DNA from: a virus
Virus record (IMG/VR): IMGVR_UViG_3300037963_001944
Location: 1-25,388 of that record
Length of the DNA: 25,388 nucleotides
Reading direction: 5' to 3' (one strand)
The notes below the pieces were generated by a model. That model was not told the DNA's origin, did no database searches, and saw nothing but the letters and a program-made list of their open reading frames with translations. Shown one piece after another: positions 1,695 through 25,366 of the stretch. The number at the start of each line of letters is the position of its first letter. Positions within the stretch are counted from its first letter, which is position 1. The position numbers and the translations under genes are program-made.

Positions 1695-1979
1695 TTACCA
1701 CGCCTCGCAAGACCAATAACGGGCACTAAACTTATCCTTGGCTGTATCGCAATTATGTCGCGCTCTAAAACTTTTTCGTCGCGCCGGTTGGTTCTTTTTA
1801 ATTGTCATGTCGGGATCGCCAAAACGAACCATTTTAACTTGGTCGCCTTTTTTGGCTAATACAACAGACTTTTTAGAACCACCTTTTGAACGTTTTGGCT
1901 GGTTATACCCAGAAAAAGTTTCGCCACGGTACTCTAAACGACCTGAAGGTAATCTTTTTACGTTTTTTACAGTAGCCAC
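1695..1979 (-). CDS. Basic conserved phage protein (94 aa)
   Basis: The first of four consecutive small basic genes. Its core KKGDQVKMVRFGDPDMTIKK followed by NQPARRKSFRARHNCD and the end ARYWSCEAW form a recognisable pattern (K-x-V-R-F-G-D-P-x-M, R-R-K-S-F-R-A-R-H, Y-W-S-C) shared by small phage proteins of unknown role. The two cysteines and a histidine (RARHNCD...YWSC) could bind metal, but this is speculative. It starts six bases after the stop of the upstream structural gene. Confidence 0.7.
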   Translation of the reverse strand: MATVKNVKRLPSGRLEYRGETFSGYNQPKRSKGGSKKSVVLAKKGDQVKMVRFGDPDMTIKKNQPARRKSFRARHNCDTAKDKFSARYWSCEAW

Positions 1980-1985
1980 GTGCTT

Positions 1986-6286: not shown

Positions 6287-6739
6287 TTAGTTGTGGAAAA
6301 TATCGTTTGGATCTTGAATAACAGCTAACACTTCGTCATCGTTTAAAATCCGAACCTCACTACCAAAAGCGGCTTTAGTATCTTCGTTTAAACGAAAGCG
6401 AGAACCGGCGTAACGAGCAAAGATGATCCAATCTTTTTCAGCACACCAAGGTTCTCCCGGGAACTTTTCTTGATCTTTGTAGCAAAGAGGTCCCAGTCTT
6501 AAAACGTAACCTACGTTAGTTTGTATTGCCGAATCATCCACAGCTTTATCGGGAAGATAAATGCCACCCGTTGTTTTATTGGGTGGTCTAAAAGGTAAGA
6601 TTAGAAGACGCCAACCGGTAGGTTGGGGAAGTCTATCTATTGCAGATGAATCAATAAGGGAAGGGTCTAACACGCGGTCTTCTGGAGCAACATAACAGTC
6701 GTCTAAAATACCGGATTTTTCTTCTGAAGCTTCAGCCAT
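6287..6739 (-). CDS. GroES/Cpn10-like co-chaperonin (150 aa)
   Basis: Phage-encoded co-chaperonins (T4 gp31 is the classic case) cap the host GroEL ring to help fold capsid protein. Here PTGWRLLILPFRPPNKTTGG (residues ~40-59) leads into IYLPDKAVDD. NKTTGGIYLP occupies the place of the GroES mobile loop (KSAGGIVL in GroES). It is followed by the beta-barrel pattern NVGYVLRLGP, a basic segment FARYAGSRFRL and a closing VRILNDDEVLAVI. An N-terminal extension of ~38 residues and an insert around CYKDQEKFPGEPWCAEKD make it longer than bacterial GroES (~97 aa). No GroEL gene is in the window, so it should act with host GroEL. Its position among head genes fits capsid folding. Confidence 0.85.
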   Translation of the reverse strand: MAEASEEKSGILDDCYVAPEDRVLDPSLIDSSAIDRLPQPTGWRLLILPFRPPNKTTGGIYLPDKAVDDSAIQTNVGYVLRLGPLCYKDQEKFPGEPWCAEKDWIIFARYAGSRFRLNEDTKAAFGSEVRILNDDEVLAVIQDPNDIFHN

Positions 6740-6929
6740 CTATTAATTCCTGATTTTCTAACATTCTTGAGATTTCTCCCAGAACATATTCTAAGGCGCG
6801 TAGTTCACCCATGCATTCTCGGTATTGTTCCATATTTTTAACAGAGCCTCCGATCAACACGTCATTTATTTGCGATTGTCGCTCACGAATGACCTTTTGC
6901 GTGTACTGAACTACATCGATTTCACTCAT
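6732..6929 (-). CDS. Small helical phage protein (65 aa)
   Basis: MSEIDVVQYTQKVIRERQSQ opens an almost wholly helical, charged protein ending GEISRMLENQELIDG. A central segment (SVKNMEQYRECMGELRALEY) resembles short helical-hairpin proteins common in phage structural operons, which have no assigned role. It overlaps the GroES-like gene by 8 bases, so the two are probably translationally coupled. A 51-base gap upstream separates it from the lysozyme gene and could hold a weak promoter, but I cannot define one. Confidence 0.65.
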   Translation of the reverse strand: MSEIDVVQYTQKVIRERQSQINDVLIGGSVKNMEQYRECMGELRALEYVLGEISRMLENQELIDG

Positions 6930-6980
6930 GTAGCAAGATATTACATCATCGAATACAATCTTACCACATCTTATACATAA

Positions 6981-7403
6981 TTAAGCGTATTCTCCTGTTC
7001 GTATCATTTCAGTAACTTCTGGTGCGCGACCCTTAACTTGTTCCGCCCACCTACTGTCCATGAATTCATCGGCAGCTCTATCAAAGTCTTCAGTAGCCAT
7101 AGCATCAAGAGCTTTTTTAAATCCTCTTAATCTGGTCTGACCAAGATTAAAGGAAATGTCTATCATGGCGTGTTGCCTTGCTTCATTAAGCCCACCAAAC
7201 CAGTAATACTCATCGGAAAGTTCTTCTTTTACACGTTTAATATCGTTATCTAGCAGGTAATCAACTTCATCATCAGAAAGACCCAAGCCAGAGTCTGCGA
7301 TATTTCGGCCTACGCCTATTGTTTCGTAACCTTCACTACATAGATACACAAAGTTTTTAACCCCTTCGTGTCTTCTAAGCATTTCTCTTAGCTTTTCACT
7401 CAT
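6981..7403 (-). CDS. Endolysin: T4-type lysozyme (GH24 muramidase, 140 aa)
   Basis: Cleaves the glycan strands of peptidoglycan during lysis. Residues 8-34 (MLRRHEGVKNFVYLCSEGYE, TIGVGRN) show the GH24 pattern: catalytic Glu13, then Cys22 in place of the usual Asp, then Thr28, with the E-8-(D/C)-5-T spacing. A second conserved block (AMIDISFNLGQTRLRGFKKA) lies around 98-117. The start at 7403 (MSEK) overlaps the o-spanin stop by 8 bases; an upstream in-frame start seven codons earlier would lengthen the overlap. No N-terminal signal-anchor segment is visible, so release should depend on a holin. Confidence 0.9.
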   Translation of the reverse strand: MSEKLREMLRRHEGVKNFVYLCSEGYETIGVGRNIADSGLGLSDDEVDYLLDNDIKRVKEELSDEYYWFGGLNEARQHAMIDISFNLGQTRLRGFKKALDAMATEDFDRAADEFMDSRWAEQVKGRAPEVTEMIRTGEYA

Positions 7404-11968: not shown

Positions 11969-14900
11969 TAGCCTGTCCTCAAATTAAAGGAACCACGGGA
12001 TACGCGCTCAGTCACCGTACCTCCGGGGTATTCATATACTCTTTCTGTTTCATCTACTCTACCGGGACCCATCATGTTTTCAAACAACCCTGCAATGCCT
12101 TCAGCTTCTCCGACATTACGCACAACCGGGCCACCTTCGGCCATACCGCCTCCGGGTCCTGTACCACCGCCTCCTGTATTAGTGCTATCTACAGGGAAAG
12201 GACCGTACATAATATCACCGGTTTCTTTGTTAATCAGGTAACCGTTTCCTTGACCATCAGTTACCTGAACGAAAGGAAGATCCCGGTCTACCATGGCTTG
12301 TATTTCGTTTTGAATATTTTTACTGGGACCCATCGTATCCATTAAAAAATCAGCATACATCGGGTCTCCGGGCTGGGGAGTCTCAAAGAACGGGTTAAGT
12401 CCGCCCCAGCTTCCGCCAGCGGCGGGTAGTCGTCCGCTACCTGAAATACGATCCGGGAAGAAATCACCGCCGGGTCCTAAATAACGTCCACCCGTAGCTC
12501 CAGAAAACGTAGAGAACCCAGATCCCGGCGCATCTATGCTTCCTATTCTAGTTCCCAACTCGTCACGACCTCTTGCTCGGGCAACATCTCCTCTAACTTC
12601 AACGGCTCGTTCTAATTTGCCCAGCATATTAGCGGCCCATTCTTTAGTATACTGAGACCATTGTTCAACAGGAATTTCGTTTTCTATTAGTTCATCCAAA
12701 GCCCCAGAGGATTTTAATAACTGAAATTCTGGAGAACCTTCTAACTTACCTTCAATGTATCCCGGTAAGGTGTCCGTAACGTATTTTTGTCGTTCTTCGA
12801 TACTCATCTTTTGCCACGCAGAGTCATCCACCAACCCAACTATTTCCGCAACAGCCCGATCCATAGCATTATCGGCCTTATCTAACACATCTAAGTGTTG
12901 TTGGTATTTATCCGCATCAATCAAAACATCAGAGTAAGTGTAAATGGGAGTGCCATCAGCAAGCGTGTATGCCGGGGTTTGTTCAAACTCTTGATTTGTT
13001 TCTGGACTTCTAAACAAGTTTAACGGATTCATCATCTGTAAACCCGCAGTTAAACCGTCCATTAGCATGGTTCTAAAATTTCTTTGGCCGTCTTCTGTTT
13101 TATCAGAAACGTCCGTTCCTTCTTGTGTGCCCAATAATCTTTGTAACCAGTTCTCGCCTTCAAGCTGACCAGTTTCTTCATTATATTCCCTAAAGAACCT
13201 ATTGGAACGCCCGTCGTCAATCTTATCCAAGATCCTATTAATCAGCGTACCAAGGCCGTCCCGACGATAATATTCCCCGTTTTCATTCCGCAACAAATTA
13301 CCATCTTCGTCTCTAGCGTAAGTGGCTAAAATAAACGCGGGTCTGTTTGACCAGATTCGATCTGCAACTTGAATAGGTATATCAGACAAAGCCCGTAGCG
13401 GGTTGTTAACAAAATCAGCCAAACCTTCTCCGGCAGTCTTCCAGTTAACAGGCTGGCCTTGTGTCATTTCAGGACGTTTCATGTACAAGTTGTACGCATC
13501 CACGTCCATCGTTTCTGCAGACGTCATGCCTACTTCAGGCTTTTCATACAGCTCCGTTTCTACTTCTTCTTCCGTTCCAAAACCTATGTTTGAAAAATCA
13601 ACGCTAGGAAGCTCTGCGCCAGACCCTAGATCCGGCTTAATCACATCAATCATCTCACCTGCCGCAAGACGCTCGGCTGAATACTCCTGACCCGGGATCA
13701 ATGACTCTTTAATCTCCATGCCCTGAGTCGTGGGATATCCAGTCTGGTACGTGGTATCTAGATACTGGTTAACAGAAAGATCTGGAGAAACCCCGGTTAT
13801 CGGTACAAAAGGCTGCTCATCCGGTGCGTCCGGCTGGTCTTGAACTGTGAACATCGGTACATCTTCTGCTGTTGGAGAAGGCACCAAAGAAACAGGCTCT
13901 CCCTCCGTAGTGGTCGCTAATTCTTCCGAAGCCAACGGCTCAGTGACTACTAGTGGAGACGTGTCTACCACGGGTTCTGTCGTAGTTGTAATTACCGGCT
14001 CAGTTGTCGTTTCAATCACCGGCTCAGTCGTTGTTTCCGTAGTGGTTTCAAACGGAGTTAAAGACTCTGTAGTCGTTTCGATTACCGGTTCGGTCGTAGT
14101 CGTAGCAATCACCGGTTCTGTCGTAGTTGTAATCACCGGTTCTGTCGTTGTCTCAATTACTGGTTCGGTTGTCGTAGTGATTACCGGTTCTGTCGTAGTT
14201 TCCGTAGTGGTCTCAATTAAATCTTCTGCCGGGGTCGTAGTCTGGAACACAGAAGTAACCGTGGGGTCTGTACCCTTAACCGTGTTTTTTGGATAACCCA
14301 GATCTTCTAGCTGAAGATCGCCGGAGGCTACCAGTTTTTGTTGCAAGGGGTTAAGACCCGCAGGCATTGTTGTTTCTTGAACCGTGGCGGTTGTTGTAGG
14401 AACCACATCCTCTTCTTCGTCTTGGGCATACACTCGACCAGTAAAATTAGGCAAGCCCGCAAAACTTCCTATGCCACCTCCCATTTGAGCAAACGTGGGC
14501 ACAGTGATTTGCGTACCAATACTAGGCAGAAAAAAGTCCATCGAAGGAGGAGCCATTGTTTCACGTGAAAAAGGCTGACGGGCCAAGGGTCCTGTTTGAG
14601 GGAATCTGTTCATACTGTTTACCATACCACCATCAGCAAAATTATTATTGGTTTCTTCCTCTGGCTCTTCCATTGCACCGAGGGTCGCTGCGGTTAGACC
14701 CCCGTCACCGGAAATAGAAAACATCTCATCGCGGAATTGTTGCTTGGCATCAACCACGCTGGCGCGGGTACGTTCCTCGTCTCTGGGGTCAGCAGTTCTG
14801 TTGTATTTTACAACTTTTAAACCTTTTGCTTTTAACGCATCAATAAGCTCTTCGCTGGCATAAGTAGGCACAATAGCCCCCGCAAACTCGTCCATTCTTA

Positions 14901-16878
14901 CAACTCTTTGCGGTTTGGCCTCAAAATATTTTTTTGGAGTATATTGAGCTTGCCGTTCAAACTTTAAAATATCTTGAGTTGTTTTTTCTATTTGTTCTTC
15001 TAAGTTACTTTTATTTATAGGAGCGCGGCTTCCACCCAGTATAAAAGAGGTAAGACTAGAGCCTTCTGCCATGTCCGACAAACTGCTATAGCTACGGCGC
15101 ACATAGTCTCTTACAGCATCGACATCCGGTGCCAACTGTGCGGCTTTGTTAAGAAACTCAGTTCTAAGTGCTTTGGGAATCGGTAAATTTTCTAAAATCT
15201 CTTCTGTAGCTTCTTGAAAATGTGTCACTGAAGTTGATCGGAGTTGTTCTGGATAAACCGGGCTAACCCCGGCCCCGTAGTTTTTTTCTCTAAGTAAACG
15301 CGGCATACCTTCGGGGGTATCTGCATATTTTTTGGCCGCTACATTACTGGGCAACGATCTAGCCGTTCGTGCAAACATAGGTCCCGGGGCAGTGCTTTCA
15401 GTGCCACCTTCTCCTAATCGAAGGTCGTCTGCTCTCATAGCATTTACTAAGTTCTCTGGGGTTGCGTCAATTACTTTTGGCTTACCATCTTCGTAAATTT
15501 CTACATATTCTCGGGGTTGTCCTTTTTCATCTGTTTCGACATACCGACTCTTGAAGTTTTTTAGCCACTTCTTGTATTTTTCTTGTAACGCCGGGTTGCC
15601 TTCTAAAGGCTCGGATAAAAATCTAACAATCTCTGCTCTTGCATCGGAAGAACTATCTATATTGTCGTCTATAACTTTTAAGGCATTATTTGTTAACTCA
15701 GCGTCATACGTGTCTGATGCCAACCGGTCAGGAACCCTTAAAGATAAATTGTTTACTTCATCAAACCCCTCGTCTTTTAAAAACTTGTAAATAATAAGAG
15801 GGTTTTCTTTTTCATTTAAAAAATAACTGATAGGTCTTAAACCCGGGGCTTTGCCCGTGTAATGTTTCCCAACGTCTTCTATAAAGCCTGCTTGCGCGTA
15901 CCAAAGATTAGAATTTGTGTGGTCCGCAATAGACTGTAGGAAGCCAAAATCTTCGTTTAGGGTAGCTACTCGTTTTTCAGGATCTTCTAATAAACGAGTA
16001 AAAGTAGGCGGGTGCCTCGGGGTATAAGCGTCTGCACTAAAAATAACGTTTTGTGGATTAGTTGCCGGGTCAAAAGCTTCCTGCTTTCCAACCAGAATAA
16101 TGTCCCCAAAACCCGCTGCTTTTTCAGTTTCACGGGCTATAGCCAGACTAGGGGAGATTAATCCGTCTTTTTCTAACGCAGCGAACAACTCCTCTTCTTC
16201 TAACTCATGGGTAAACAATAAGTCTTTCTGGCTTCCTGACTCATCAAACCGGGGCGCAGGAGGATCTTTAAGATCAATTCGCATGTCCCCAAACCCCTCC
16301 AACACAATCCTGTTGGGTCCAGCTCCTAGTGCCACACCATCGTCAACACCTTTTAAAGCAATTGCTGTACCTAATGCAGGGGGCGCAGTAGAACCCAACA
16401 ACACATCGGAGGCGCGGTATTCTTCCCCGGTTTCCGGGTCCCGGGTTCCATAGACGCCGCGTGTGTACGCATCCATAGACCCTTTCATCTGACGCTCTAT
16501 GGCTTCTGGTAACTGTTTTACCATCTCAGCCGCTTCTGCTCTTTTTTCCGGATCTGTTAAAAGATCACTGGCATAATCGACCCCGGTCCGTAGGGCGCGG
16601 TACGCAGGCATGTATTCCAGACCAAACTCTGGGTCTCCATACTGCCCCGGCGTAAACTGCCGTTCCTGCTCTTGTTCCATTTGACCTGTTATAGGATTGA
16701 AAACAGGTCGGGGATCTCCGTAAGTAATTTTGGAGGGCTGTAAAATTTCTTGTCTTGTGGGACGGAAAAAACTTCCTACTTGTCCAAGTAGACCGTCATA
16801 CTCTGCGTCAGGTTTTCCGTAGGCGTATTCTCTTTCCGCCGCAAGTAACTCAGCAGGGCTAAGTTCTTGTTCAGCCAT
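11968..16878 (-). CDS. Giant polyvalent-like phage protein (1636 aa)
   Basis: The longest gene in the window, between terL and portal, overlapping terL by 8 bases. Residues ~241-290 (ISPSLAIARETEKAAGFGDI through IFSADAYTPRHPP) and ~655-722 (KPQRVVRMDEFAGAIVPTYA, then a FSI ending) resemble modules I know from large polyvalent proteins of phages and conjugative elements. At ~745-820 there is a low-complexity Gly-rich segment (FADGGMV). At ~888-972 lies a Thr/Glu tract with eight EPV(I/V) units. The rest is acidic and mostly disordered, ending in a Gly-rich tail (GGGGTGPGGGMAEGGP, ~1570-1590). Such proteins are often injected with DNA or packed in the head; that is inference. No catalytic motif is certain. 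Confidence 0.75.
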   Translation of the reverse strand: MAEQELSPAELLAAEREYAYGKPDAEYDGLLGQVGSFFRPTRQEILQPSKITYGDPRPVFNPITGQMEQEQERQFTPGQYGDPEFGLEYMPAYRALRTGVDYASDLLTDPEKRAEAAEMVKQLPEAIERQMKGSMDAYTRGVYGTRDPETGEEYRASDVLLGSTAPPALGTAIALKGVDDGVALGAGPNRIVLEGFGDMRIDLKDPPAPRFDESGSQKDLLFTHELEEEELFAALEKDGLISPSLAIARETEKAAGFGDIILVGKQEAFDPATNPQNVIFSADAYTPRHPPTFTRLLEDPEKRVATLNEDFGFLQSIADHTNSNLWYAQAGFIEDVGKHYTGKAPGLRPISYFLNEKENPLIIYKFLKDEGFDEVNNLSLRVPDRLASDTYDAELTNNALKVIDDNIDSSSDARAEIVRFLSEPLEGNPALQEKYKKWLKNFKSRYVETDEKGQPREYVEIYEDGKPKVIDATPENLVNAMRADDLRLGEGGTESTAPGPMFARTARSLPSNVAAKKYADTPEGMPRLLREKNYGAGVSPVYPEQLRSTSVTHFQEATEEILENLPIPKALRTEFLNKAAQLAPDVDAVRDYVRRSYSSLSDMAEGSSLTSFILGGSRAPINKSNLEEQIEKTTQDILKFERQAQYTPKKYFEAKPQRVVRMDEFAGAIVPTYASEELIDALKAKGLKVVKYNRTADPRDEERTRASVVDAKQQFRDEMFSISGDGGLTAATLGAMEEPEEETNNNFADGGMVNSMNRFPQTGPLARQPFSRETMAPPSMDFFLPSIGTQITVPTFAQMGGGIGSFAGLPNFTGRVYAQDEEEDVVPTTTATVQETTMPAGLNPLQQKLVASGDLQLEDLGYPKNTVKGTDPTVTSVFQTTTPAEDLIETTTETTTEPVITTTTEPVIETTTEPVITTTTEPVIATTTTEPVIETTTESLTPFETTTETTTEPVIETTTEPVITTTTEPVVDTSPLVVTEPLASEELATTTEGEPVSLVPSPTAEDVPMFTVQDQPDAPDEQPFVPITGVSPDLSVNQYLDTTYQTGYPTTQGMEIKESLIPGQEYSAERLAAGEMIDVIKPDLGSGAELPSVDFSNIGFGTEEEVETELYEKPEVGMTSAETMDVDAYNLYMKRPEMTQGQPVNWKTAGEGLADFVNNPLRALSDIPIQVADRIWSNRPAFILATYARDEDGNLLRNENGEYYRRDGLGTLINRILDKIDDGRSNRFFREYNEETGQLEGENWLQRLLGTQEGTDVSDKTEDGQRNFRTMLMDGLTAGLQMMNPLNLFRSPETNQEFEQTPAYTLADGTPIYTYSDVLIDADKYQQHLDVLDKADNAMDRAVAEIVGLVDDSAWQKMSIEERQKYVTDTLPGYIEGKLEGSPEFQLLKSSGALDELIENEIPVEQWSQYTKEWAANMLGKLERAVEVRGDVARARGRDELGTRIGSIDAPGSGFSTFSGATGGRYLGPGGDFFPDRISGSGRLPAAGGSWGGLNPFFETPQPGDPMYADFLMDTMGPSKNIQNEIQAMVDRDLPFVQVTDGQGNGYLINKETGDIMYGPFPVDSTNTGGGGTGPGGGMAEGGPVVRNVGEAEGIAGLFENMMGPGRVDETERVYEYPGGTVTERVSRGSFNLRTG
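13963..14217 (-). repeat. In-frame repeat: EPVI plus Thr-tract units
   Basis: Within the giant protein, units of the form TTTEPVI(T/E/A)TT occur eight times, interrupted once by SLTPFE. At the DNA level the copies are imperfect and use mixed codons, so the repeat is old or under amino-acid-level selection. It may act as a flexible, highly acidic/threonine-rich spacer between the N-terminal modules and the C-terminal part. Confidence 0.8.
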
Positions 16879-18351: not shown

Positions 18352-18774
18352 CTAAACTAATGCCAAATACAAAGAATCATAGTCAATCGGCGCAGATAAA
18401 CTTAAAGAAGGTTCCGTTTTGTTTAGCCCAAATCGCACCAAATCAAAGATCTGGGGACCCTTGAACAAGAATACCGTGTAGTCCCGGGCCGTTTTGCCCA
18501 GCTTCTTGACCAGCACCCACACATTTGCTTCCGAATGCTTCACCGCAAACGCTACCTGATGCGGACTTAACTTGACCACATTGCCCTTGGATACCTTCAA
18601 TTCGATTAAATGAAAATTATTTTTTTCATCGCATAACAAAATATCCGGGATTCCCGGAGTACTGGCATTTTCAATGCGAGTCAAAATAACGTCGTTACGA
18701 GCTTTCAGGAGTCCCGACTTCAACTGACTCCAAAACTGGCTTTCCGGCTTCTGGCTCAAGCACCTCACCTTCAA
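18352..18774 (-). CDS. VRR-NUC-type nuclease (140 aa), non-ATG start
   Basis: A PD-(D/E)xK nuclease fold is indicated by LTRIENASTPGIPDILLCDE (the G-I-P-D motif, D44), then HLIELKVSKG (E58 and K60) and LSPHQVAFA (Q73): the D...ExK...Q pattern of VRR-NUC domains. Such phage nucleases probably act in recombination or packaging-related cleavage. The segment ESQFWSQLKSGL near the N-terminus fits the family. The first codon at 18774 is TTG; GTG at 18768 and TTG at 18759 are alternatives, all inside the terS coding region, so the start is uncertain. Up to 80 bases overlap terS in a different frame. Confidence 0.85.
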   Translation of the reverse strand: MKVRCLSQKPESQFWSQLKSGLLKARNDVILTRIENASTPGIPDILLCDEKNNFHLIELKVSKGNVVKLSPHQVAFAVKHSEANVWVLVKKLGKTARDYTVFLFKGPQIFDLVRFGLNKTEPSLSLSAPIDYDSLYLALV

Positions 18775-19264
18775 TAATCTTAGGCTCTTCCCCTAACTGA
18801 CGTTTGATATCCAAAATGGCTTTTTCTACATCGGCCTTGGACATGGAATCTATCGATCCGTGACGGATCTCGGAGCGTGACACGTACAAATCCGCAGCCT
18901 GACCACGACGGTACTCCGCTTGGACAGCAGCAGAGTAAGCTCCGTTCTCGATTGCTGCATCACGGATTCTCTGTAAATCTCTCACGTGCCGACCATAATC
19001 AACATTATACTTTTCGGCCAGCTCCTGACGCCGCTCTCTCACGGCTTTGACGACATGGGGGTTCAAACGGGGATTTAACAGCTCATAGGCTCTGGTGTGT
19101 GCAGACTTGGCCGCGTATCCCGCTTCAGCAGCTATTTCGCGGAGGGTCATTTCTCCCTCCTTTACGCAGACAAGGTTCACGAAATCCCATTGCTTCTTCG
19201 TTAGTCGCGTGTTCTCAGTCTTGCACGGGCGACCACGGGTCTCGACTACTGCATTTTCGGCCAT
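18695..19264 (-). CDS. terS: Terminase small subunit (189 aa)
   Basis: Recognises the packaging site on concatemeric DNA and hands it to TerL. Residues ~20-65 (LTKKQWDFVNLVCVKEGEMT, LREIAAEAGYAAKSAHTRAY) have the (L)T-x-K-Q-x-x-F-V plus helix-turn-helix pattern of phage small terminases. They are followed by a helical oligomerisation region (VVKAVRERRQELAEKYNVDY, ~75-95) and an acidic C-terminal tail. It starts the late block; the Shine-Dalgarno is weak. A probable promoter and a GC-rich repeat block, candidate packaging site, lie immediately upstream. Confidence 0.85.
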   Translation of the reverse strand: MAENAVVETRGRPCKTENTRLTKKQWDFVNLVCVKEGEMTLREIAAEAGYAAKSAHTRAYELLNPRLNPHVVKAVRERRQELAEKYNVDYGRHVRDLQRIRDAAIENGAYSAAVQAEYRRGQAADLYVSRSEIRHGSIDSMSKADVEKAILDIKRQLGEEPKIIEGEVLEPEAGKPVLESVEVGTPESS

Positions 19265-19305: not shown

Positions 19306-19755
19306 CATTTTTTTCAAAGTGAAACCTATATCGTTTTTTATGGGATTGTTTGCGTAAAACCTGCACCTTTACCCGAGTGGAGAAAAACACTCCGCGCTGG
19401 GAAATCCTCAAGAGCCCGCCTGCCCGATCCGGCGAAAATGACGCGCTCGGATCGAAGGGGTCCCAGCCGATCCGGGAGCTGCGGCCACGGCCCACGGCCC
19501 ATGGTGCGGGGCTTTCGGCGGTTTTTGTGTTCGCTGCGCTGTTGTTCCTGGGCATGGGATGATCTGCGATAAATCGCTGACCAGGCTAACTCGAAAAATT
19601 CGCGATCCGGGAGCTGGCCTCCTACCCGATCCGATCCGATCCGGGAGCTGCGGTCACCGATCCGGGAGCTGCGGCCCACGGTCCACGGTTCACGGGCCGG
19701 TAGGTTTTGGCTAGGGAGAGGGGGCCGCGGGGCGGCGTGTTTAACTGGGAAATCG
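19306..19755. other. GC-rich non-coding block between terS and the right arm
   Basis: About 450 bases without a convincing gene. Its open frames are short, low-complexity and lack ribosome sites. It is far richer in G+C than the flanking genes and contains direct repeats of GATCCGGGAGCTGCGG, runs of CCGATCC, and CACGG-type words (CACGGCCCACGG, CACGGTCCACGG). No hairpin terminator for the DUF6884-like gene is clear. The position beside terS suggests a packaging (pac or cos) region or a replication origin; neither can be decided here. Confidence 0.6.
19469..19674 (+). repeat. Direct repeats GATCCGGGAGCTGCGG (4 copies, one partial)
   Basis: Copies at 19469-19484, 19638-19653 and 19659-19674 are identical over 16 bases. 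One at 19604-19616 matches only the first 13 (GATCCGGGAGCTG). All face the same way, with spacings of about 135, 34 and 21 bases between starts. Copies 1 and 4 are followed by GGC-CACGG-type sequence. They form a directional array in the block next to terS. Confidence 0.9.
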
Positions 19756-20154
19756 TTAGGAATCGATCAGGGCAGCGAGTGCCCGGTAATGGTCGCCATT
19801 GCCGCGGTTCAATCCGATCAGCTCGTGCGGCTGCAGCTGCCCTAGTCGATCCGCCCAGCTCTTAACCACGTCCCGGTAAAGTTTGCCGCCGTAAACGTAA
19901 ACCGGCCCAGCTGGGAATGTCGCAGGCAATTGGTTTGCCAATTCTGCAGCCCGGGCACGATCCATTTTCTGGTCGTAGTCCGCGATTATTTCCGATCCGG
20001 AAATAAGCCCATGTTTTGCGCTTAGAACAAAAACCGACCAGCCGCGATCCTGCAGCTGCCGAGCAACCTTGAATTGTCGCGCTTGGTACAGGTCCAAAGC
20101 CCGGTGCGATCCGGTTAACTTGTTTGCGCTGCAGCTAATGATTAACGAGTTCAT
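19756..20154 (-). CDS. DUF6884-like protein (132 aa), probably leaderless
   Basis: MNSLIISCSANKLTGSHRAL, then VFVLSAKHGLISGSEIIADY, match the pattern of DUF6884/YaaA-like proteins: an N-terminal I-S-C-S-x-x-K-L, D-L-Y, and a central L-S-A-K-(H/Y)-G-L-(I/V). Their biochemical role is not established; a DNA- or nucleotide-related role has been suggested for related folds. The domain begins at residue 4, so the start at 20154 must be nearly right, yet no Shine-Dalgarno precedes it; a -10 and an operator do. The next upstream gene is separated by a terminator. Confidence 0.8.
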   Translation of the reverse strand: MNSLIISCSANKLTGSHRALDLYQARQFKVARQLQDRGWSVFVLSAKHGLISGSEIIADYDQKMDRARAAELANQLPATFPAGPVYVYGGKLYRDVVKSWADRLGQLQPHELIGLNRGNGDHYRALAALIDS

Positions 20155-20171
20155 ACGGGAATTATCGCATA
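20154..20171 (-). promoter_or_regulatory. Operator plus extended -10 at the start codon
   Basis: On the minus strand TATGCGA-TAAT-TCCCGTA matches the regulon operator (half-sites TATGSGA and TCSCATA, spacer 4). The same bases contain TGCGATAAT, an extended -10 with GATAAT at 20161-20166. A start site six or seven bases downstream would fall on the A of the ATG, giving a leaderless mRNA. A repressor bound here would block both transcription and the start codon region. Confidence 0.5.
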
Positions 20172-20210
20172 CTATTTCGGCGGCGGCTCGGGCAGCGACA
20201 AATAAAACCC

Positions 20211-20238
20211 AAAAAAAACCCGGGACATGCCCGGGCTT
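20211..20238 (-). terminator. Rho-independent terminator, CCCGGG stem
   Basis: On the minus strand AAGCCCGGG-CATGT-CCCGGG is followed by a run of eight Ts. It ends the two-gene unit 20256-20929 and isolates the DUF6884-like gene. Confidence 0.85.
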
Positions 20239-20255
20239 AATTGCGGCGGCTGCAG

Positions 20256-20735
20256 CTATTCGATCAACGCGGCATCGTTGAAACAAGTAACCGCCCGATC
20301 AACATCCAAACCGATCCATCCGCCACGGTCCGGGTCGACATATTGCAGCTTGCGCGGCTGCAGCTGAATGATCCGCCCATTGTGCGGCATAAAAACATCA
20401 ATCAAATCGACGCTCGGAATATCGCACAATCGCAGCCGGTGGCCGGCGGAATTTCTCGGCGTAAAAAACCGGTCGATAATTTCTTTGTAAGTTTTGGTAC
20501 TTTCGAGAACCGGGTAAATGTATAAAACTTCCCGCCCGGAGTTATCGCGCTGCAGGTCGCCAGTGGGATGACTCCATCGGGGATCGATTCCGGTTATTCG
20601 ATAGATCGGCAATGGCCATTCGACGTATTCAATCCGCCGGTCCTCGGTAGCAAAAATCAAAAGACAAAGATGCATCCGCGGACCTTTCACTTTCTCAGAT
20701 TTCATTGTCACGATATCGAGTTCTTTTTTGCTCAT
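20256..20735 (-). CDS. Hypothetical phage protein (159 aa)
   Basis: Start at 20735 (MSKKELDIVTMKSEKVKGPR) chosen because GGGGGA lies 3-4 bases upstream and the ATG overlaps the previous stop as ATGA. A start 11 codons earlier is possible. The protein has a beta-rich centre (YVEWPLPIYRITGIDPRWSH, VLYIYPVLESTKTYKEIIDR) and a C-terminal part with RIIQLQPRKLQYVDPDRGGW. No motif or family is recognised. It forms a two-gene unit with the upstream small zinc-binding-type protein. Confidence 0.65.
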   Translation of the reverse strand: MSKKELDIVTMKSEKVKGPRMHLCLLIFATEDRRIEYVEWPLPIYRITGIDPRWSHPTGDLQRDNSGREVLYIYPVLESTKTYKEIIDRFFTPRNSAGHRLRLCDIPSVDLIDVFMPHNGRIIQLQPRKLQYVDPDRGGWIGLDVDRAVTCFNDAALIE

Positions 20736-20929
20736 ATTTCCCCCCAGCCAGCTGATCTTAACCATGCATTGTCTGCGTCGGCGATAGCCTGCCGGCGTTC
20801 GCGCTGCGACTCGCAAGCTGGGCATAAAATCATGCCGCCATCAATTGAAGTAGAACCACACCGATACTCAACGATCCGATAATCCCAGCCGCTAGGAACG
20901 GCTATTTCGATTTTGTTTTTACACGTCAT
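20732..20929 (-). CDS. Small Cys-rich, putative zinc-ribbon protein (65 aa)
   Basis: Start at 20929 (MTCKNKIEIAVPSGWDYRIV) is set by the conserved leader CTAGTGAGGTT 7 bases upstream. Cysteines at YRCGS (residue ~24) and at ILCPACESQR (C-x2-C, ~37-40) with the N-terminal TCKN could bind one zinc. Small zinc-ribbon proteins are common early phage gene products that bind host proteins or DNA, but no target can be named. Confidence 0.65.
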   Translation of the reverse strand: MTCKNKIEIAVPSGWDYRIVEYRCGSTSIDGGMILCPACESQRERRQAIADADNAWLRSAGWGEI

Positions 20930-20936
20930 AAGTGCA

Positions 20937-20976
20937 AACCTCACTAGTTATTAAAAAGTATGCGATTTCTCGCATC
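20937..20976 (-). promoter_or_regulatory. Regulon operator and conserved leader
   Basis: The operator is at 20959-20976. On the minus strand it reads gATGCGA-GAAA-TCGCATA, half-sites with a four-base spacer and one mismatch. It runs directly into CTTTTTAATAACTAGTGAGG and TT, the shared leader ending in the Shine-Dalgarno. The promoter hexamers are not clear: TACTTT is the only -10 candidate in the position used at other sites and its -35 is poor. Confidence 0.5.
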
Positions 20977-21003
20977 CGGGAAGTATAGCCCTAAAGCGCA
21001 GGC

Positions 21004-21031
21004 AAAAAAAAGCCCGGGATTAACCGGGCTT
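21004..21031 (-). terminator. Rho-independent terminator after DUF932-like gene
   Basis: On the minus strand AGCCCGG-TTAATC-CCGGGCT forms a 7-bp stem followed by eight Ts. It ends the single-gene DUF932-like unit. Confidence 0.85.
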
Positions 21032-21050
21032 AGTCGCTGCAGCTGCGCGA

Positions 21051-22220
21051 TCAGGCTGCAATTTTCTCGCTTGCGTTAGGTGCCTTCGCGATCACTTCCC
21101 ACTGGCTGCGATTCAAGTCAAGAATAGTCGATCCGGCAAGCTGCCAGTCGTCCACTTTATCCGGCTCGGCATCATTAGCCACGGCGGTGACCGCGTTAAC
21201 AATGGTAGCTCGGCTAAGGGGCTTACCAACGTATCCTTCTTGCTGAATAGTTGACATTAAACCAGCCATGATCGATTCGGTGTTTTTCTTCGGAACATTT
21301 AAAACCTTAACCACGGCGTCCACCACTGCGCTGGGATTAGTCAACCCGCCCTCGATTCTATCTTCGTGCGCGTTCGCCATTTTTACGAGAATTTCATCAA
21401 AAGATTCACGGCTGGCATAACTTCCGACAATGTCCCTAATCTTTGCAGCCAGTGCCCGGTTGTCTAAATCTTTGGTTTCTTGCGTCAATAGATCCCAGTG
21501 ATCGGAACCGCGCCCGCCGGTTACATGCGTATTTCGAGACGTGTTAGCGGTTTGCATTCCGTTTAAACATTCCAACGTCCAATACATTTGTGAACAGGCA
21601 ACCGCGCCATGGCCAACTTCGCTATTTGACAAAAAAAGCCCGTTAGCCATTAGATCCCCAACGGCTGGCTGGCCAGTCTGAACCCGGGATTTTAAGCGAA
21701 TAGACATTTTTCGATCCGTAACACAGCCATTTATTACCTGCCAATCCGCCTCGGTCCCGATCAGCTGCGGCAACGCTGCCTGTATTAGATCAACGTTATC
21801 GAACGTCTTAAACTTGTCAGAAACAATCGCTCGCAATGTCGGCTGCTCACCATCTAAGTTTTCAAACGTGCGGAGCATATGGTTCTTAGGCTCATTCTGC
21901 AGGATTTCGTTAATCAGCCCATCAAAATGCGGCGCATATTTCTCATTATCACGAAAACGCCTCGCGCTGCGAACGTCAAAGCTGCATTTTTCCGCAAGTT
22001 GCGTAAACGCTACGTCGTTAGTTTTTAAAAACCGCGTTGGCTCGCCGCGCTCCGCTTCCAAAATTACGCTAGTTTCGCCGTCGGCGGACCTAACCTGCAT
22101 CTTAGAGCTTGGCGCGATGTAATCAGCTGCCCGGGCCGCCTGATCATTAACGGTTTTTAGGATCGACTCTAAAGAGCCATTTTCGTTTTCTAAAATTTTA
22201 AAGGGTGTACCTTCTAACAT
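21051..22220 (-). CDS. DUF932-like protein (389 aa)
   Basis: DUF932 proteins are widespread on phages and plasmids; their function is not established. Support: TLRAIVSDKFKTFDNVDLIQ (residues 128-147), the R-A-I-V-S-D-x-(Y/F)-x-x-x-D-N signature; then LKSRVQTGQPAVGDLMANGL; then an SEVGHGAVACSQMYW segment near 215. The length is typical. It is an autonomous unit with its own upstream half-sites, the conserved leader (CTAGTGAGGTT) 6 bases before the ATG, and its own terminator. Confidence 0.85.
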   Translation of the reverse strand: MLEGTPFKILENENGSLESILKTVNDQAARAADYIAPSSKMQVRSADGETSVILEAERGEPTRFLKTNDVAFTQLAEKCSFDVRSARRFRDNEKYAPHFDGLINEILQNEPKNHMLRTFENLDGEQPTLRAIVSDKFKTFDNVDLIQAALPQLIGTEADWQVINGCVTDRKMSIRLKSRVQTGQPAVGDLMANGLFLSNSEVGHGAVACSQMYWTLECLNGMQTANTSRNTHVTGGRGSDHWDLLTQETKDLDNRALAAKIRDIVGSYASRESFDEILVKMANAHEDRIEGGLTNPSAVVDAVVKVLNVPKKNTESIMAGLMSTIQQEGYVGKPLSRATIVNAVTAVANDAEPDKVDDWQLAGSTILDLNRSQWEVIAKAPNASEKIAA

Positions 22221-22224
22221 TTAA

Positions 22225-22283
22225 TTAACCTCACTAGTTATTTTTAAAAAATTGCCTTTCGGCCCGCATATCTTCGCATATCT
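22225..22283 (-). promoter_or_regulatory. Conserved leader and direct-repeat half-sites
   Basis: The leader AATAACTAGTGAGGTT lies just before the DUF932-like start. About 35 bases upstream are two tandem half-sites (minus strand AGATATGCGA and AGATATGCGG; 22264-22283), the same TATGCGA heptamer as the operators but in direct rather than inverted order. Promoter hexamers are not obvious. Confidence 0.5.
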
Positions 22284-22299
22284 AAACTTTAAAAAAAAG

Positions 22300-22330
22300 C
22301 AAAAAAAAGCCCGGGACAATGCCCGGGCTG
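22300..22330 (-). terminator. Rho-independent terminator, AGCCCGGG stem
   Basis: On the minus strand AGCCCGGG-CATTGT-CCCGGGCT forms a perfect 8-bp stem followed by seven Ts, then a further A/T-rich stretch. It ends the two-gene unit 22348-22815. Confidence 0.85.
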
Positions 22331-22347
22331 CTAGTGGGTTGGCTGCG

Positions 22348-22530
22348 CTACTCTTTAAAATTTTCTATCCATTCTAAAAAAATTTGGTTCGCGCATTTTC
22401 GAGAAACATCAAAGTTTTCCCGGAGATAAGTCGGAGCGGAAAACATGTTGATTTCGCCAGACTCCCGGACTAGGTCTAAATGATCAAAAAGCTCTTCTCT
22501 ATCTGCCTGCGTTAGTTCGTCGTAATTCAT
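22348..22530 (-). CDS. Small conserved phage protein (60 aa)
   Basis: MNYDELTQADREELFDHLDL, then RESGEINMFSAPTYLRENFD and CANQIFLEWIENF. The L-R-E-S-G-x-(I/T)-N-M-F-(S/G)-A...L...F-x-(V/L)-S-x-K-x-A...W pattern is familiar from short phage proteins of 50-65 residues that have no known role; I recall it rather than proved it. The start is preceded by AGGTTTAGGTT. It sits 9 bases after the upstream gene in the same unit. Confidence 0.75.
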   Translation of the reverse strand: MNYDELTQADREELFDHLDLVRESGEINMFSAPTYLRENFDVSRKCANQIFLEWIENFKE

Positions 22531-22539
22531 AACCTAAAC

Positions 22540-22815
22540 CTACTTAGCAAACCGGGGCAAAAAAGCATTTTCAAGCTTCCCGGTCTCGCGGTTTATATGA
22601 TTGTGAATACCAATTAAATCGTGCATAAAGTTGAAATCATCCGCCGCCAGCCATCTATCAATGTCGAGCGGCTGCGACTTGTGCGCTGCGCTTATATCCA
22701 TCATCGCTTGGAGTTTGGTTTGCCGAGAAACCCAGTTAGCATAATTCTTGTCTGCCTTTTCTGAAATCTCAACGCCGCGCTTAACAACCTGAAAACATTT
22801 TTCTAAATCTATCAT
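22540..22815 (-). CDS. Hypothetical phage protein (91 aa)
   Basis: MIDLEKCFQVVKRGVEISEK begins a helical, charged protein (KADKNYANWVSRQTKLQAMM, ~20-40; then WLAADDFNFMHDLIGIHNHI, ~54-73). No family is recognised and no signal or membrane segment is seen. It opens a two-gene unit under one operator (22842-22857), with the conserved leader TTAGCGAGGTT four bases before the ATG. Confidence 0.7.
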   Translation of the reverse strand: MIDLEKCFQVVKRGVEISEKADKNYANWVSRQTKLQAMMDISAAHKSQPLDIDRWLAADDFNFMHDLIGIHNHINRETGKLENAFLPRFAK

Positions 22816-22841
22816 TTGTAACCTCGCTAATTATTAAAAAG

Positions 22842-22857
22842 TATGGGATATCCCATA
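22842..22857 (-). promoter_or_regulatory. Perfect regulon operator TATGGGATATCCCATA
   Basis: A perfect 16-bp palindrome, the cleanest copy of the operator (half-sites TATGGGA/TCCCATA, 2-base spacer). It is followed on the minus strand by CTTTTTAATAATTAGCGAGG and TT, the common leader. A -10 at its downstream edge is only weak (TACTTT, with a poor -35). Confidence 0.65.
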
Positions 22858-22873
22858 ACCCGAATATGACAGT

Positions 22874-23620
22874 TTACGCTGCCACTTTCAAGGGGATTTG
22901 TTTAAAAAATCGATTCTCAAAAACTTCCCGATTTGTCTGATCGACCACGAAAAATTTATTAGTTTCGCTTGGAACCAAAGCCGGGCCTTTAGCTTTAAGC
23001 CCGATAATCTTCCCGGGCTGGCTAAGATTTAAAAGATCCGATTTATCCCCGTTGACGACCTCGCGCCCTAAAAAGGTTTCCGGCATTGGGCCACGAAAAA
23101 CCGCAGCAATAGGCACACCAGTTTCAAAAGCTTTCAAAACTTGGTTGTGATACTTAGCCGCGCCGCTATAACTAAACATCAAATGGTAGTTAGGCGGAGT
23201 TTTTAAAAGTCGAGCTGCTCGTTTTGTGTAGTCATATAGATTCAGTTCCGGGAATTCTTGCGGAATCCCGTATTTTTCGAATGCCACGTCTGAGAGAACA
23301 TTTAGCCGGACCCACGGAGTCAAGCCAAGCTTTGAACATAGTTTTGCAAAGTTGTGCAGTTCCCGGCGCAGCTGCTCCAGAAAACCGGATTGGTCAGTTT
23401 TAAAAAATTCAGTTTTTCTGGCCCGGGCTTCGTTTACGGAATCGTAAACCGCAGCCAAACCAGAATACAAAAGACAATCGTCTATGCATTGGGCTGCTTT
23501 GCTCCCGGGGCAAAGTTCGTTATCAGGATGCAAACTAAGCTGCGCTAATCGAATGCCCGCCGTTAAAGCTTGCGTTTTGGCGATCTTGGTGTTGCCGCCC
23601 GTCGTGTCTAATAGTTTCAT
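22874..23620 (-). CDS. GP88/DUF7227-like phage protein (248 aa)
   Basis: The N-terminal part reads GGNTKIAKTQALTAGIRLAQ, then NELCPGSKAAQCIDDC (C37, C45, C49; C-x7-C-x3-C), then LLYSGLAAVYD and ARARKTEFF. The middle has LGLTPWVRLNVLSDVAFEKY (~100-119). This is the pattern of a phage family (GP88 or DUF7227-like) with a clustered cysteine motif. Its function is unknown; a metal site is likely. It has its own promoter and a good leader, CTAGCGAGGTT, 5 bases before the ATG. No terminator follows. Confidence 0.8.
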   Translation of the reverse strand: MKLLDTTGGNTKIAKTQALTAGIRLAQLSLHPDNELCPGSKAAQCIDDCLLYSGLAAVYDSVNEARARKTEFFKTDQSGFLEQLRRELHNFAKLCSKLGLTPWVRLNVLSDVAFEKYGIPQEFPELNLYDYTKRAARLLKTPPNYHLMFSYSGAAKYHNQVLKAFETGVPIAAVFRGPMPETFLGREVVNGDKSDLLNLSQPGKIIGLKAKGPALVPSETNKFFVVDQTNREVFENRFFKQIPLKVAA

Positions 23621-23648
23621 TAAATAACCTCGCTAGATAGTTAAGCCC

Positions 23649-23677
23649 ATGCTATGGGATATCGCATACTCAATCAA
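23649..23677 (-). promoter_or_regulatory. Sigma70-type promoter with operator in the spacer
   Basis: On the minus strand TTGATT (23672-23677), a 17-base spacer, and TAGCAT (23649-23654). The spacer and the first bases of the -10 contain TATGCGA-TA-TCCCATA (23653-23668), a copy of the operator. The -35 overlaps the stop codon of the 43-aa gene upstream. Repression by occlusion is the simplest reading. Confidence 0.6.
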
Positions 23678-23805
23678 GCTTTTTTTTCTGCCTGCTTTTT
23701 TTGTTTCTCTAATTGCTCGACGCGGTTTTTAATTCGGTTATGTGCCGGTGTGGATTGGCTGGGATCGCTCCAATCAATAAGTTTTTTTAAAAAAAGTATA
23801 GGCAT
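23674..23805 (-). CDS. Small basic protein (43 aa)
   Basis: MPILFLKKLIDWSDPSQSTP begins with a hydrophobic patch; the C-terminus is a Lys/Gln/Glu-rich helix (RVEQLEKQKKQAEKKA). TTGGAG lies 6 bases before the ATG, and an operator-promoter sits at 23834-23862, so it is probably a real gene. No function can be given; small size and a basic helix suggest a binding protein. Confidence 0.6.
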   Translation of the reverse strand: MPILFLKKLIDWSDPSQSTPAHNRIKNRVEQLEKQKKQAEKKA

Positions 23806-23819
23806 TTATTGCTCCAAGT

Positions 23820-23873
23820 AAGTAAAAGTTCCGAGCATATGGGAGTTCCCATACCTCTGCAAGTAAAAGTTCC
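23820..23873. repeat. 13-base direct repeats AAGTAAAAGTTCC flanking an operator
   Basis: Identical copies at 23820-23832 and 23861-23873 flank the operator-promoter of the 43-aa gene. Their spacing is 41 bases between starts, about four helical turns, as for sites of a second cooperating regulator. Confidence 0.7.
23834..23862 (-). promoter_or_regulatory. Sigma70-type promoter with perfect operator
   Basis: On the minus strand TTGCAG (23857-23862), 17 bases, TATGCT (23834-23839). The spacer holds the perfect inverted repeat TATGGGA-AC-TCCCATA (23838-23853); its last TA is the start of the -10. It drives the 43-aa gene. Confidence 0.6.
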
Positions 23874-24124
23874 CTATATAAGTAACTTTTTCAGGAAATC
23901 AAAAAATATTTTTTTCGCTTTGCCTCAAAAACTCTAACTTCTAACGTGAATTAACGGCCACGTTTTGGTGTCCCGGCATTCTTGAAGACGGGATCTTGAC
24001 GGGATCTCTGAAACCCGCGTTTTTACTGGGGAATCCCGTCGATCCCCCCAATCCCGCCATTTTTCAAAAAAAAAAAAAAAAAAATACTTTGCTGGAAAAA
24101 ACTCTATATATAGGGCGTTTTAAT
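23863..24124. other. Non-coding region with inverted and direct GACGGGAT repeats and an A19 tract
   Basis: About 260 bases without a supported gene. It contains GACGGGAT at 23987-23994 and 23998-24005, its reverse complement ATCCCGTC at 24033-24040, and a related ATCCCGCC at 24051-24058. A run of 19 As at 24066-24084 and a CTATATATAG palindrome follow. The repeat cluster, an A/T tract and an easily melted segment recall replication-origin or iteron-like elements, but no initiator gene is recognised. Confidence 0.45.
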
Positions 24125-24146
24125 AAAAAAGGGGCCGAAGCCCCTT
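24125..24146 (-). terminator. Rho-independent terminator after zinc-finger gene
   Basis: On the minus strand AAGGGGC-TTCG-GCCCCTT is a 7-bp stem with a stable UUCG tetraloop, followed by TTTTATTA. It lies 5 bases after the stop of the 56-aa gene. Confidence 0.85.
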
Positions 24147-24151
24147 AATCC

Positions 24152-24322
24152 TTACCAATCTTGCCAAGAATCCCCGGACCATGATTTCAGTCGCGGTTTG
24201 TCTCGATGGTAATCAAAACACTCGTCGCATTCGATTCGTTCGCCACTTGGCCCGTGGTCCCCGCACCGATATTTAATTTTGACGCCCTTTCGGACGGTAA
24301 GCTCAAGTTTTGTATCACACAT
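24152..24322 (-). CDS. Small zinc-binding protein (56 aa)
   Basis: MCDTKLELTVRKGVKIKYRC, then GDHGPSGERIECDECFDYHR and a Trp-rich end (SWSGDSWQDW). Ligands C20, H23 and CDEC (C32, C35) form a C-x2-H...C-x2-C pattern suited to one zinc. It is too short for most automatic calls, but it has a CTAGCGAGG leader before its ATG and a terminator just after its stop. The role is unknown; it could bind DNA, RNA or a host protein. Confidence 0.75.
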   Translation of the reverse strand: MCDTKLELTVRKGVKIKYRCGDHGPSGERIECDECFDYHRDKPRLKSWSGDSWQDW

Positions 24323-24342
24323 AATTTTTTTCCTCGCTAGTT

Positions 24343-24378
24343 TTTAAAAGACCCGGGAGCCGTAGCCCCCGGTTCGTT
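24343..24378 (-). terminator. Probable terminator after the cysteine-peptidase-like gene
   Basis: On the minus strand an imperfect GC-rich stem (ACCGGGGGC with loop TACG and GCTCCCGGGT) is followed by CTTTTAAAAA. The stem has one bulge and one mismatch, so efficiency may be lower than the other terminators. The following A/T-rich stretch leads into the CTAGCGAGG leader of the next gene. Confidence 0.6.
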
Positions 24379-24384
24379 CCCGTT

Positions 24385-24840
24385 CTAGATTTGCCAGTAC
24401 CCGTACACGCACCGAGTCCCATTTCTGGAGCAGTCGTGGGTGTCGTGAACAACACCATCTATTACTGCCGCTAGGTGTCTGGATAAGTTACATACCAAAC
24501 GCCCGGATGGTAGCTCGTCGGCTTTAAGGTGAACTTGACACCCGCTGCCGATCTGCATGGTGGGGGTCCAGACAAACCCGAGTTCGACCATGTAGTCCTT
24601 GAACCATTTCCGCGTGGTATAGATACCGTCACGGGCTGATCTGGACTGTTTTCCCGCGTGTTTTGATTTACGCTGCTTGGCGTTCCCTTCGGCCAATCGG
24701 TCATAGACCTGTTGGTAAGGGAGTTGTGCTGCAATGGCTATGGCTCGACAAACGCAGTCGCCTGCGTCTCCTTTATAGCCTGCTGCCTTTCGGCCTCCGT
24801 CGTTGTAAACGAACGCAGGAATAGTTGTGGCTTCACTCAT
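24385..24840 (-). CDS. Putative papain-like cysteine peptidase (151 aa)
   Basis: Start at 24840 (MSEATTIPAF) is set by GAGGAGG just upstream; longer in-frame extensions lack a ribosome site. DAGDCVCRAIAIAAQLPYQQ (C29 in the G-D-C-x-x-R-A-I-A context) and a C-terminal block SRHLAAVIDGVVHDTHDCSR (H122, D133 or D136) fit a papain-type Cys...His...Asp order. The catalytic activity is a proposal from motif layout. It may act on host or phage proteins early in infection. It sits in the regulon with the shared leader. Confidence 0.6.
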   Translation of the reverse strand: MSEATTIPAFVYNDGGRKAAGYKGDAGDCVCRAIAIAAQLPYQQVYDRLAEGNAKQRKSKHAGKQSRSARDGIYTTRKWFKDYMVELGFVWTPTMQIGSGCQVHLKADELPSGRLVCNLSRHLAAVIDGVVHDTHDCSRNGTRCVYGYWQI

Positions 24841-25147
24841 GTGAACCTCCTCGCTAGTTTTAATTGTAGCCGCTGCTGCCAGAACCCCGGCTGCTGCAGC
24901 CTGTCTAAAGAACAATCGAGATGGTCAAACTCGACAGTGGTTTTATGACCATCCCATATTTTAACATATATACTTATAGAAATATACCTTGAATTTTTAA
25001 AAAGTCGGTCTCAACTATACCGTGTTTTCATAAGCTTATAACTTTTAGTTATAAAAACTCTTTTTTAAGAATTTTTAGACAAAACGCTTGACAGTTGTAT
25101 AAGACATCCCATATCTTCCCAAACCTACCAACACAGCGAGGTTAAAA
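24841..25147. other. Divergent regulatory region, about 300 bases, no supported gene
   Basis: A/T-rich spacer between a leftward gene and the rightward operon. It carries a lone half-site ATCCCATA at 24951-24958 with a degenerate partner (TATGACC), a perfect inverted repeat TTATAAC-TTTTA-GTTATAA at 25036-25054, and the plus-strand promoter at 25088-25117. A leftward promoter should exist but I cannot pin one down. The long 5' region of the leftward gene (more than 100 bases from the half-site) may be a leader. Confidence 0.55.
25088..25117 (+). promoter_or_regulatory. Sigma70-type plus-strand promoter with operator
   Basis: TTGACA (25088-25093, consensus), an 18-base spacer, TATCTT (25112-25117). 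The spacer contains TATAAGA-CA-TCCCATA (25098-25113), a variant operator with two mismatches in the left half-site. It drives the 72-aa gene and the following operon. The position of the operator relative to the -10 matches the minus-strand sites at 23653 and 23838. Confidence 0.75.
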
Positions 25148-25366
25148 ATGGAAACATACGAAGTTGAAGTTGAGGTGTCTTACACGGCCACGGTCATTGT
25201 AGACGCGGGATCTGAATCGGACGCTCGGCACTATGGCAGGCAAGACGTGCAGCGTCACATAACCAACGGTAATTTTGATCATTTAGAAAATTACCACGAA
25301 GACAGGAACGAAGTTTCTGTTACGAAGTTGGAAGGCGAAAGGCTCGACGATTATTTGGGGAACTAG
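25148..25366 (+). CDS. Small acidic protein, DpnD/PcfM-like in size (72 aa)
   Basis: METYEVEVEVSYTATVIVDA, then GSESDARHYGRQDVQRHITN. The start is preceded by AGCGAGGTTAAAA, the shared leader. The N-terminal beta-strand pattern with an A-x-S-E-x-x-A-type helix after it recalls small DpnD/PcfM-like proteins, but the match is loose. It is the only plus-strand gene cluster visible and begins a rightward operon with a gene starting two bases later. Confidence 0.7.
   Translation: METYEVEVEVSYTATVIVDAGSESDARHYGRQDVQRHITNGNFDHLENYHEDRNEVSVTKLEGERLDDYLGN

Follow-up and report, generated by a model that had tools for sequence, protein, structure and literature searches.

The DNA examined here (the window) is the whole 25,388-bp IMG/VR virus record IMGVR_UViG_3300037963_001944, with a GC content of 46%. 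It comes from a tailed phage, as its terminase is closest to those of phage 023Pt_psg01, pelagiphage HTVC027P, and phage DSL-LC04 (60–66%), and the phage is probably marine. Its genes lie mostly on the minus strand, and a divergent plus-strand gene begins at 25148. Megablast of the right part against named phages found no match, Rfam and tRNA scans were empty, and NCBIfam gave no names. We analyzed a heptamer, TATGSGA (S, C or G), repeated upstream of the phage genes, and a small ribbon-helix-helix (RHH) protein of related phages that may recognize it. The following genes are those predicted to be controlled through the heptamer.

19756–20154, minus strand: phrog_5935-like protein (open reading frame from 20286; start codon read from the sequence)
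21051–22220, minus strand: protein of 389 aa, phrog_1362 family
22540–22815, minus strand: DUF6874 protein, 91 aa
22874–23620, minus strand: GP88 family protein, 248 aa
25148–25366, plus strand: first plus-strand gene behind a triple operator, 72 aa

The repeated heptamer upstream of these genes is real and conserved. The window contains 15 copies of TATGSGA, compared with 5.15 ± 2.28 expected, and none of 100 dinucleotide shuffles reached this number. The exact copies are as follows.

11471, 17451, and 18629, all minus strand: copies inside genes
19339 (plus), 20165 (minus), 20959 (plus), 22274 (minus), 22842 (plus) with 22851 (minus), 23653 (plus) with 23662 (minus), 23838 (plus) with 23847 (minus), 24952 (minus), and 25107 (minus): copies outside genes

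Of the 15 copies, 12 lie in non-coding DNA (2.3 kb, 9% of the window) and three in coding DNA (23 kb). An earlier note on this sequence had proposed a shared operator upstream of the right-arm genes, which equal density within genes would have contradicted; the densities were 5.12 per kb in non-coding and 0.13 per kb in coding DNA (p = 1.3e-10, curated gene list). The backward control, AGSGTAT, occurred eight times in coding DNA of the window and never in non-coding DNA. As relatives we took contigs connected via the gene for the 389-aa protein, in clades A (93–99% identical), B (about 58–64%), and C (52%), with genes called by a simple purpose-written caller. The contrast extends to nine related contigs or loci, where the heptamer density was 2.7 per kb in non-coding and 0.19 per kb in coding DNA.

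The heptamers are paired in a restricted geometry. When one mismatch was allowed, inverted pairs in the clades were nearly confined to spacers of 2 bp (IR2; 8, 3, and 0 pairs in clades A, B, and C) and 4 bp (IR4; 5, 23, and 12), and direct pairs chiefly had a spacer of 3 bp (DR3; 4, 13, and 8), whereas permuted-heptamer controls averaged some 0.1–0.3 pairs per spacer. With the family-wide form TATRSGA, the pooled distinct sites amounted to 25 IR2, 79 IR4, and 76 DR3. The recurrence of all three arrangements in many phage contigs bears out the suggestion of the earlier note that the binder tolerates inverted as well as direct repeats. The half-site centers are 9 bp (IR2), 11 bp (IR4), and 10 bp (DR3) apart, about one helical turn, so that bound units would share one face of the DNA. 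The candidate operators and half-sites of the window are listed below.

22842–22857, minus strand: IR2 operator TATGGGATATCCCATA, perfect 16-bp palindrome, 26 bp upstream of the DUF6874 gene (22540–22815)
23653–23668, minus strand: IR2 operator, TATGCGATATCCCATA on the minus strand, pairing a G-type with a C-type half; 32 bp upstream of the GP88 gene (22874–23620)
23838–23853, minus strand: IR2 operator TATGGGAGTTCCCATA, 32 bp upstream of a small open reading frame (23674–23805)
25098–25123, plus strand: triple site TATAAGA-2-TCCCATA-3-TCCCAAA, with promoter TTGACA-18-TATCTT, upstream of the plus-strand gene 25148–25366
22264–22280, minus strand: DR3 operator TATGCGAAGATATGCGG (TATGCGA-AGA-TATGCGG, minus strand), 43 bp upstream of the phrog_1362 gene (21051–22220)
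20959–20976, minus strand: IR4 operator, GATGCGAGAAATCGCATA on the minus strand, 30 bp upstream of a small open reading frame (20732–20929); same site in relatives L001 and G002
20154–20171, minus strand: IR4 operator with GATAAT, TATGCGATAATTCCCGTA on the minus strand, abutting the ATG of the phrog_5935-like gene (19756–20154)
24952–24958, minus strand: lone half-site TATGGGA, weak, upstream of gene 24385–24840
19339–19345, minus strand: half-site TCCCATA on the minus strand with a weak partner (TACGCAA-N4-TCCCATA), upstream of the terminase small subunit gene (18695–19264)

Perfect 16-bp palindromes had been claimed at both 22842 and 23838. The former is one, and it is unchanged in L001, L002, and L003, whose flanks are 88–92% identical; the latter has two perfect 7-bp halves, but its 2-bp center is not palindromic. 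The site at 23653 indeed pairs a G-type with a C-type half, and L001 and G002 have equivalent IR2 sites at its position. Promoter-like sequences surround the sites at 23653 (TTGATT-17-TAGCAT) and 23838 (TTGCAG-17-TATGCT). The triple site at 25098 joins the inverted and direct arrangements, and its 26-bp core is identical in L002 (flanks, 93%). The direct repeat described at 22264 was confirmed, on the minus strand; the site is 76% identical in two relatives, which retain the DR3 pair. In relatives of about 60% identity (clade B), its counterpart is often TATGCGA-N4-TCGCATG, so that one promoter alternates between direct and inverted forms. The 4-base spacers at 20154 and 20959 also held, with one mismatch each (TACGGGA-N4-TCGCATA and TATGCGA-N4-TCGCATC), and the TCGCATA half of the former is retained in the aligned relative L001. 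The half-site at 24952 (24951 in the earlier note) is present but lone and not kept in the aligned relative L002, so this operator is weak. The non-coding half-site at 19339 was omitted from the earlier list; the DNA around it is about 98% conserved in three relatives, L001–L003.

Palindromes in 5' leaders could act in RNA, as small hairpins, terminators, or attenuators, and T runs follow the sites at 22842 and 20960, which a scan flagged as terminator-like. Mixed G/C halves would break such a stem, and at the degenerate positions of the inverted sites they are about as frequent as independence of the halves predicts (IR4 position 5: 29 mixed, 34.5 expected). This independence, and the direct repeats, which are unable to form a hairpin, indicate that the site is read as DNA. 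Because the sites also overlap the −10 element (below), an action in RNA is hardly credible.

The position of the paired sites on promoters was analyzed from the putative −10 start, taken as the final TA of the TCSYATA half in DR3 and IR2 sites and as an internal GATAAT-like hexamer in IR4 sites. TTG, the start of the −35 element, peaked exactly 23 bp upstream of it, that is, at a 17-bp spacing (DR3, 15 vs. a mean of 2.2; IR2, 9 vs. 0.9; IR4, 13 vs. 4.3). This peak indicates that the sites of all three arrangements overlap the −10 element, in agreement with the earlier observation that the last TA of the operator forms its start. The heptamer might instead be a promoter element only, namely an extended −10 (TATGCGATAAT) for a sigma factor or a phage-altered polymerase. 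The upstream half in relatives of about 60% identity reads TTGCAA-16/17-TATGCGATTAT, a good extended −10, and clade B encodes a fusion of the RNA polymerase alpha C-terminal domain (alpha-CTD) with sigma region 4. We regard this as very improbable, as it leaves unexplained the two-fold symmetry, the strict spacers of 2, 4, and 3 bp, and the register to the −10, which differs among IR2, DR3, and IR4.

Two observations concern the transcripts from these promoters. Operator and GATAAT at 20142–20171 abut the start codon of 19756–20154, which would give a leaderless or near-leaderless message. Six right-arm genes are preceded by a common leader, A/T-rich and then a YTAGYGAGG ribosome-binding region (minus strand, 20947, 22237, 22830, 23636, 24340, and 24857; six exact matches in the window vs. 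0.54 expected). Together with GC-rich terminator hairpins, the leader looks like part of a reusable promoter-operator-leader cassette. In relative G002, an unrelated protein is encoded in place of 25148–25366, though the divergent operator region (window 24847–25366, G002 6609–7129) is 92% identical, suggesting a constant divergent promoter with exchangeable genes behind it.

We searched the relatives for a protein that could bind the heptamer. Pfam scans gave RHH_5 matches in clades A and C, and an RHH family search found the gene in 12 of 18 related contigs covering all three clades and none in the window itself. RHH relatives are also encoded by 147 viral loci in a scan of viral contigs and by five metagenome-assembled genome (MAG) contigs with the polymerase module. 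One relative, G005, lacks the gene and was not taken as a counter-example, as its contig ends seem to omit the RHH stretch by gene order against G008; MAG locus L189 was excluded (partial RHH match only, no polymerase module, no sites). These proteins, whose genes in the relatives adjoin that for DNA polymerase A, have 56–80 residues and start MDTxKWKSVLVP...VY..I..IA..EGRTISGQLR. Residues M1, D2, W6, K7, S8, P12, Y16, E26, R28, S31, G32, and Q33 are invariant in 27 sequences, with WKS of the strand among them. An AlphaFold (AF2) model (pLDDT 81) has a short N-terminal strand, in a region of low confidence, followed by helices 13–25 and 30–55. Its fold matches in the PDB were nearly all RHH proteins, the best being Arc, MatP, CopG, AmrZ, PutA, and FitA. 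The RHH consensus had no match in a collection of named phages, and the literature yielded no report of the operator or the protein.

The 389-aa proteins of G002 and the window share 99% identity, and in G002 the gene for a 56-aa RHH protein (2124–2294) adjoins that for DNA polymerase A (161–2074). The earlier note had seen no regulator gene in the window and had proposed looking elsewhere in the genome for a helix-turn-helix or RHH gene. Both points agree with our results: the window ends before the locus that holds the RHH gene in G002, and no regulator is visible for this reason. If the gene order is that of G002, the gene would lie about 4.5 kb past the right end, counted from the common operator (25098 in the window, 6863 in G002).

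A search of the relatives for helix-turn-helix and sigma proteins yielded two other candidates for the operator reader, which were set aside, since neither was found in every clade: the alpha-CTD/sigma4 fusion of clade B, and a SutA-domain microprotein encoded beside RHH in clade A. The former is an unusual promoter-binding fusion of 292 aa with DUF6891, the alpha C-terminal domain (E 6e-18), and sigma70 region 4 (E 8e-6). The latter has 62 aa and a SutA RNA polymerase-binding domain (E 1e-12), and its gene (2569–2757 of L090, plus strand, in G002) stands just after the RHH gene.

1319–2197, minus strand, L081 (G005): alpha-CTD/sigma4 fusion
24465–24644, minus strand, G008: alpha-CTD/sigma4 fusion

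The regulator and the operator were linked by analyzing the promoters of the RHH genes. A paired heptamer with at most one mismatch was present in 17 of 41 non-redundant RHH promoters (shuffles, 0.1%; control spacings, 0 of 41), and with at most two mismatches in 25 (shuffles, 0.9%). In 22 more distant RHH-bearing contigs there were 54 pairs in the three arrangements and three in control spacings; Markov 7-mer enrichment in distant RHH contigs was uninformative, save for one group in which TATGGGA ranked first. In contrast, DSL-LC04, 023Pt_psg01, and HTVC027P (terminase 60–66%, polymerase 50–56%) had no RHH gene and no strict pairs in 150 kb. These comparisons also bear on whether a host regulator exploited by the phage reads the operator, the RHH gene being unrelated. 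Phages often use host regulators, and the search for a regulator covered the relatives of the phage. The sites nevertheless go with the phage RHH gene even in divergent contigs, and they occur in its promoter, which makes a host reader quite improbable. The data favor the single dedicated regulator envisaged in the earlier note. The regulon would also reach beyond the right arm: in relatives, it takes in divergent replication-arm promoters and the promoter of the regulator gene.

We consider it likely that a small, phage-encoded, autoregulated RHH repressor binds the heptamer as its operator half-site and occludes many sigma70-type promoters. Viral RHH regulators usually act by promoter occlusion and autoregulation (PMC5569661). 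RHH dimers insert a two-stranded ribbon into the major groove, with cooperative binding to neighboring sites. Each dimer would read one heptamer via its beta-ribbon, and two or three dimers would be neighbors, separated by about one helical turn, on an inverted or direct pair. Binding over the −10 would block RNA polymerase at the RHH gene and at many phage promoters. For the order of events, we infer that host polymerase fires the operator promoters first; the RHH protein would then accumulate with the replication genes and shut off its targets and itself. A lysogeny switch is unlikely, because a scan of 13 contigs, including several of 50–61 kb, gave no Pfam phage integrase. It is unlikely, too, that the RHH protein bound at these sites is mainly an activator, for instance of an early-to-middle transition, or acts both ways, a mode open to AmrZ and AvtR. 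AvtR activates and represses (PMC5569661), and the −35 is poor at several sites (22842, 20959), whereas the overlap with the −10 is a typical position for occlusion and many sites have a good TTG −35 at 17 bp.

Several points weigh against the repressor model. The RHH_5 matches (E about 2e-3 to 4e-7) score about 14–25 bits, under the curated 26-bit cut-off; the N-terminal strand was modeled with low confidence and as a monomer; and the Foldseek E-values, about 0.1, are usual for 50-residue folds and not decisive. The window itself has no RHH gene, and its presence in this phage is assumed from G002. In clade A the RHH promoter itself has a weak half-site, TATGAGA, and its best pair has five mismatches. 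The RHH-bearing group D2 has few exact sites, and the three control phages, of which two are AT-rich, together gave two DR3 pairs with a relaxed half-site. What we infer from sequence are the binding, its repressive and cooperative nature, and a switch between the early and the replication phase. Finally, the distant contigs have the polymerase module in common with clades A–C, and motif and gene may have been co-inherited. The register on the promoters and the evidence for autoregulation favor a functional link over simple co-inheritance.

Separately, the window contains a 1636-aa open reading frame with TTT/EPV-rich repeats downstream of the terminase (11968–16878, minus strand), with counterparts of 1360 aa in G002 and 1521 aa in G005.

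Almost nothing is known about the timing of gene expression in uncultured marine phages. The present analysis proposes, solely on the basis of sequence, both the protein and the DNA site of such a circuit in well over a hundred contigs. The exact word, the spacing rules, and the 56-residue protein make it testable by a simple gel shift, and the operator could flag regulated transcription units and accessory genes in functionally unannotated phage contigs. We hold evenly balanced the wider proposal of an undescribed system common to a large group of uncultured marine phages, in which a single RHH protein, encoded next to DNA polymerase A, recognizes the heptamer in its three geometries to silence scattered early promoters, with fast-changing accessory genes behind them swapped as promoter-operator-leader cassettes.

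Among known systems, the Arc repressor of P22 (PDB 1par, 1bdv) is likewise a small phage RHH repressor, and its structures are among the best fold matches. Two Arc dimers bind an inverted pair about one turn apart, as proposed for the phage operator. The sequence similarity is, however, not significant (profile search of the PDB; single-chain pArc, E = 0.48), and Arc controls one immunity-region promoter set of a temperate phage, whereas here many scattered promoters would be controlled in phages whose 13 contigs show no integrase. Neither sequence similarity nor a temperate immunity region places the protein in the P22 Arc/Mnt family. The omega repressor of plasmid pSM19035 is similar in that its RHH dimers read heptads as direct or inverted repeats. 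The omega heptads abut without a spacer (7-bp period), whereas the phage operator has a period of 9–11 bp and another word. SvtR, AvtR, and F55 of archaeal viruses are virus-encoded, autoregulated RHH proteins with several genomic sites, and F55 binds tandem repeats and represses early genes (PMC5569661). They differ in their archaeal promoters and DNA words; AvtR, a tandem RHH monomer, is the only one of them that weakly matches the phage RHH sequence (E = 0.25). RelB is an autoregulating RHH protein on several short repeats on one helix face (PMC2812701). RelB/CopG-type proteins show the autoregulation proposed for the phage protein, and CopG is a fold match, but they act in an antitoxin or plasmid-copy context, and RelB needs fixed contiguous hexads, whereas the phage family would take three arrangements. 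The phage protein would thus be an autoregulated viral RHH repressor, widespread in uncultured phages and with an unusual three-way spacing rule.

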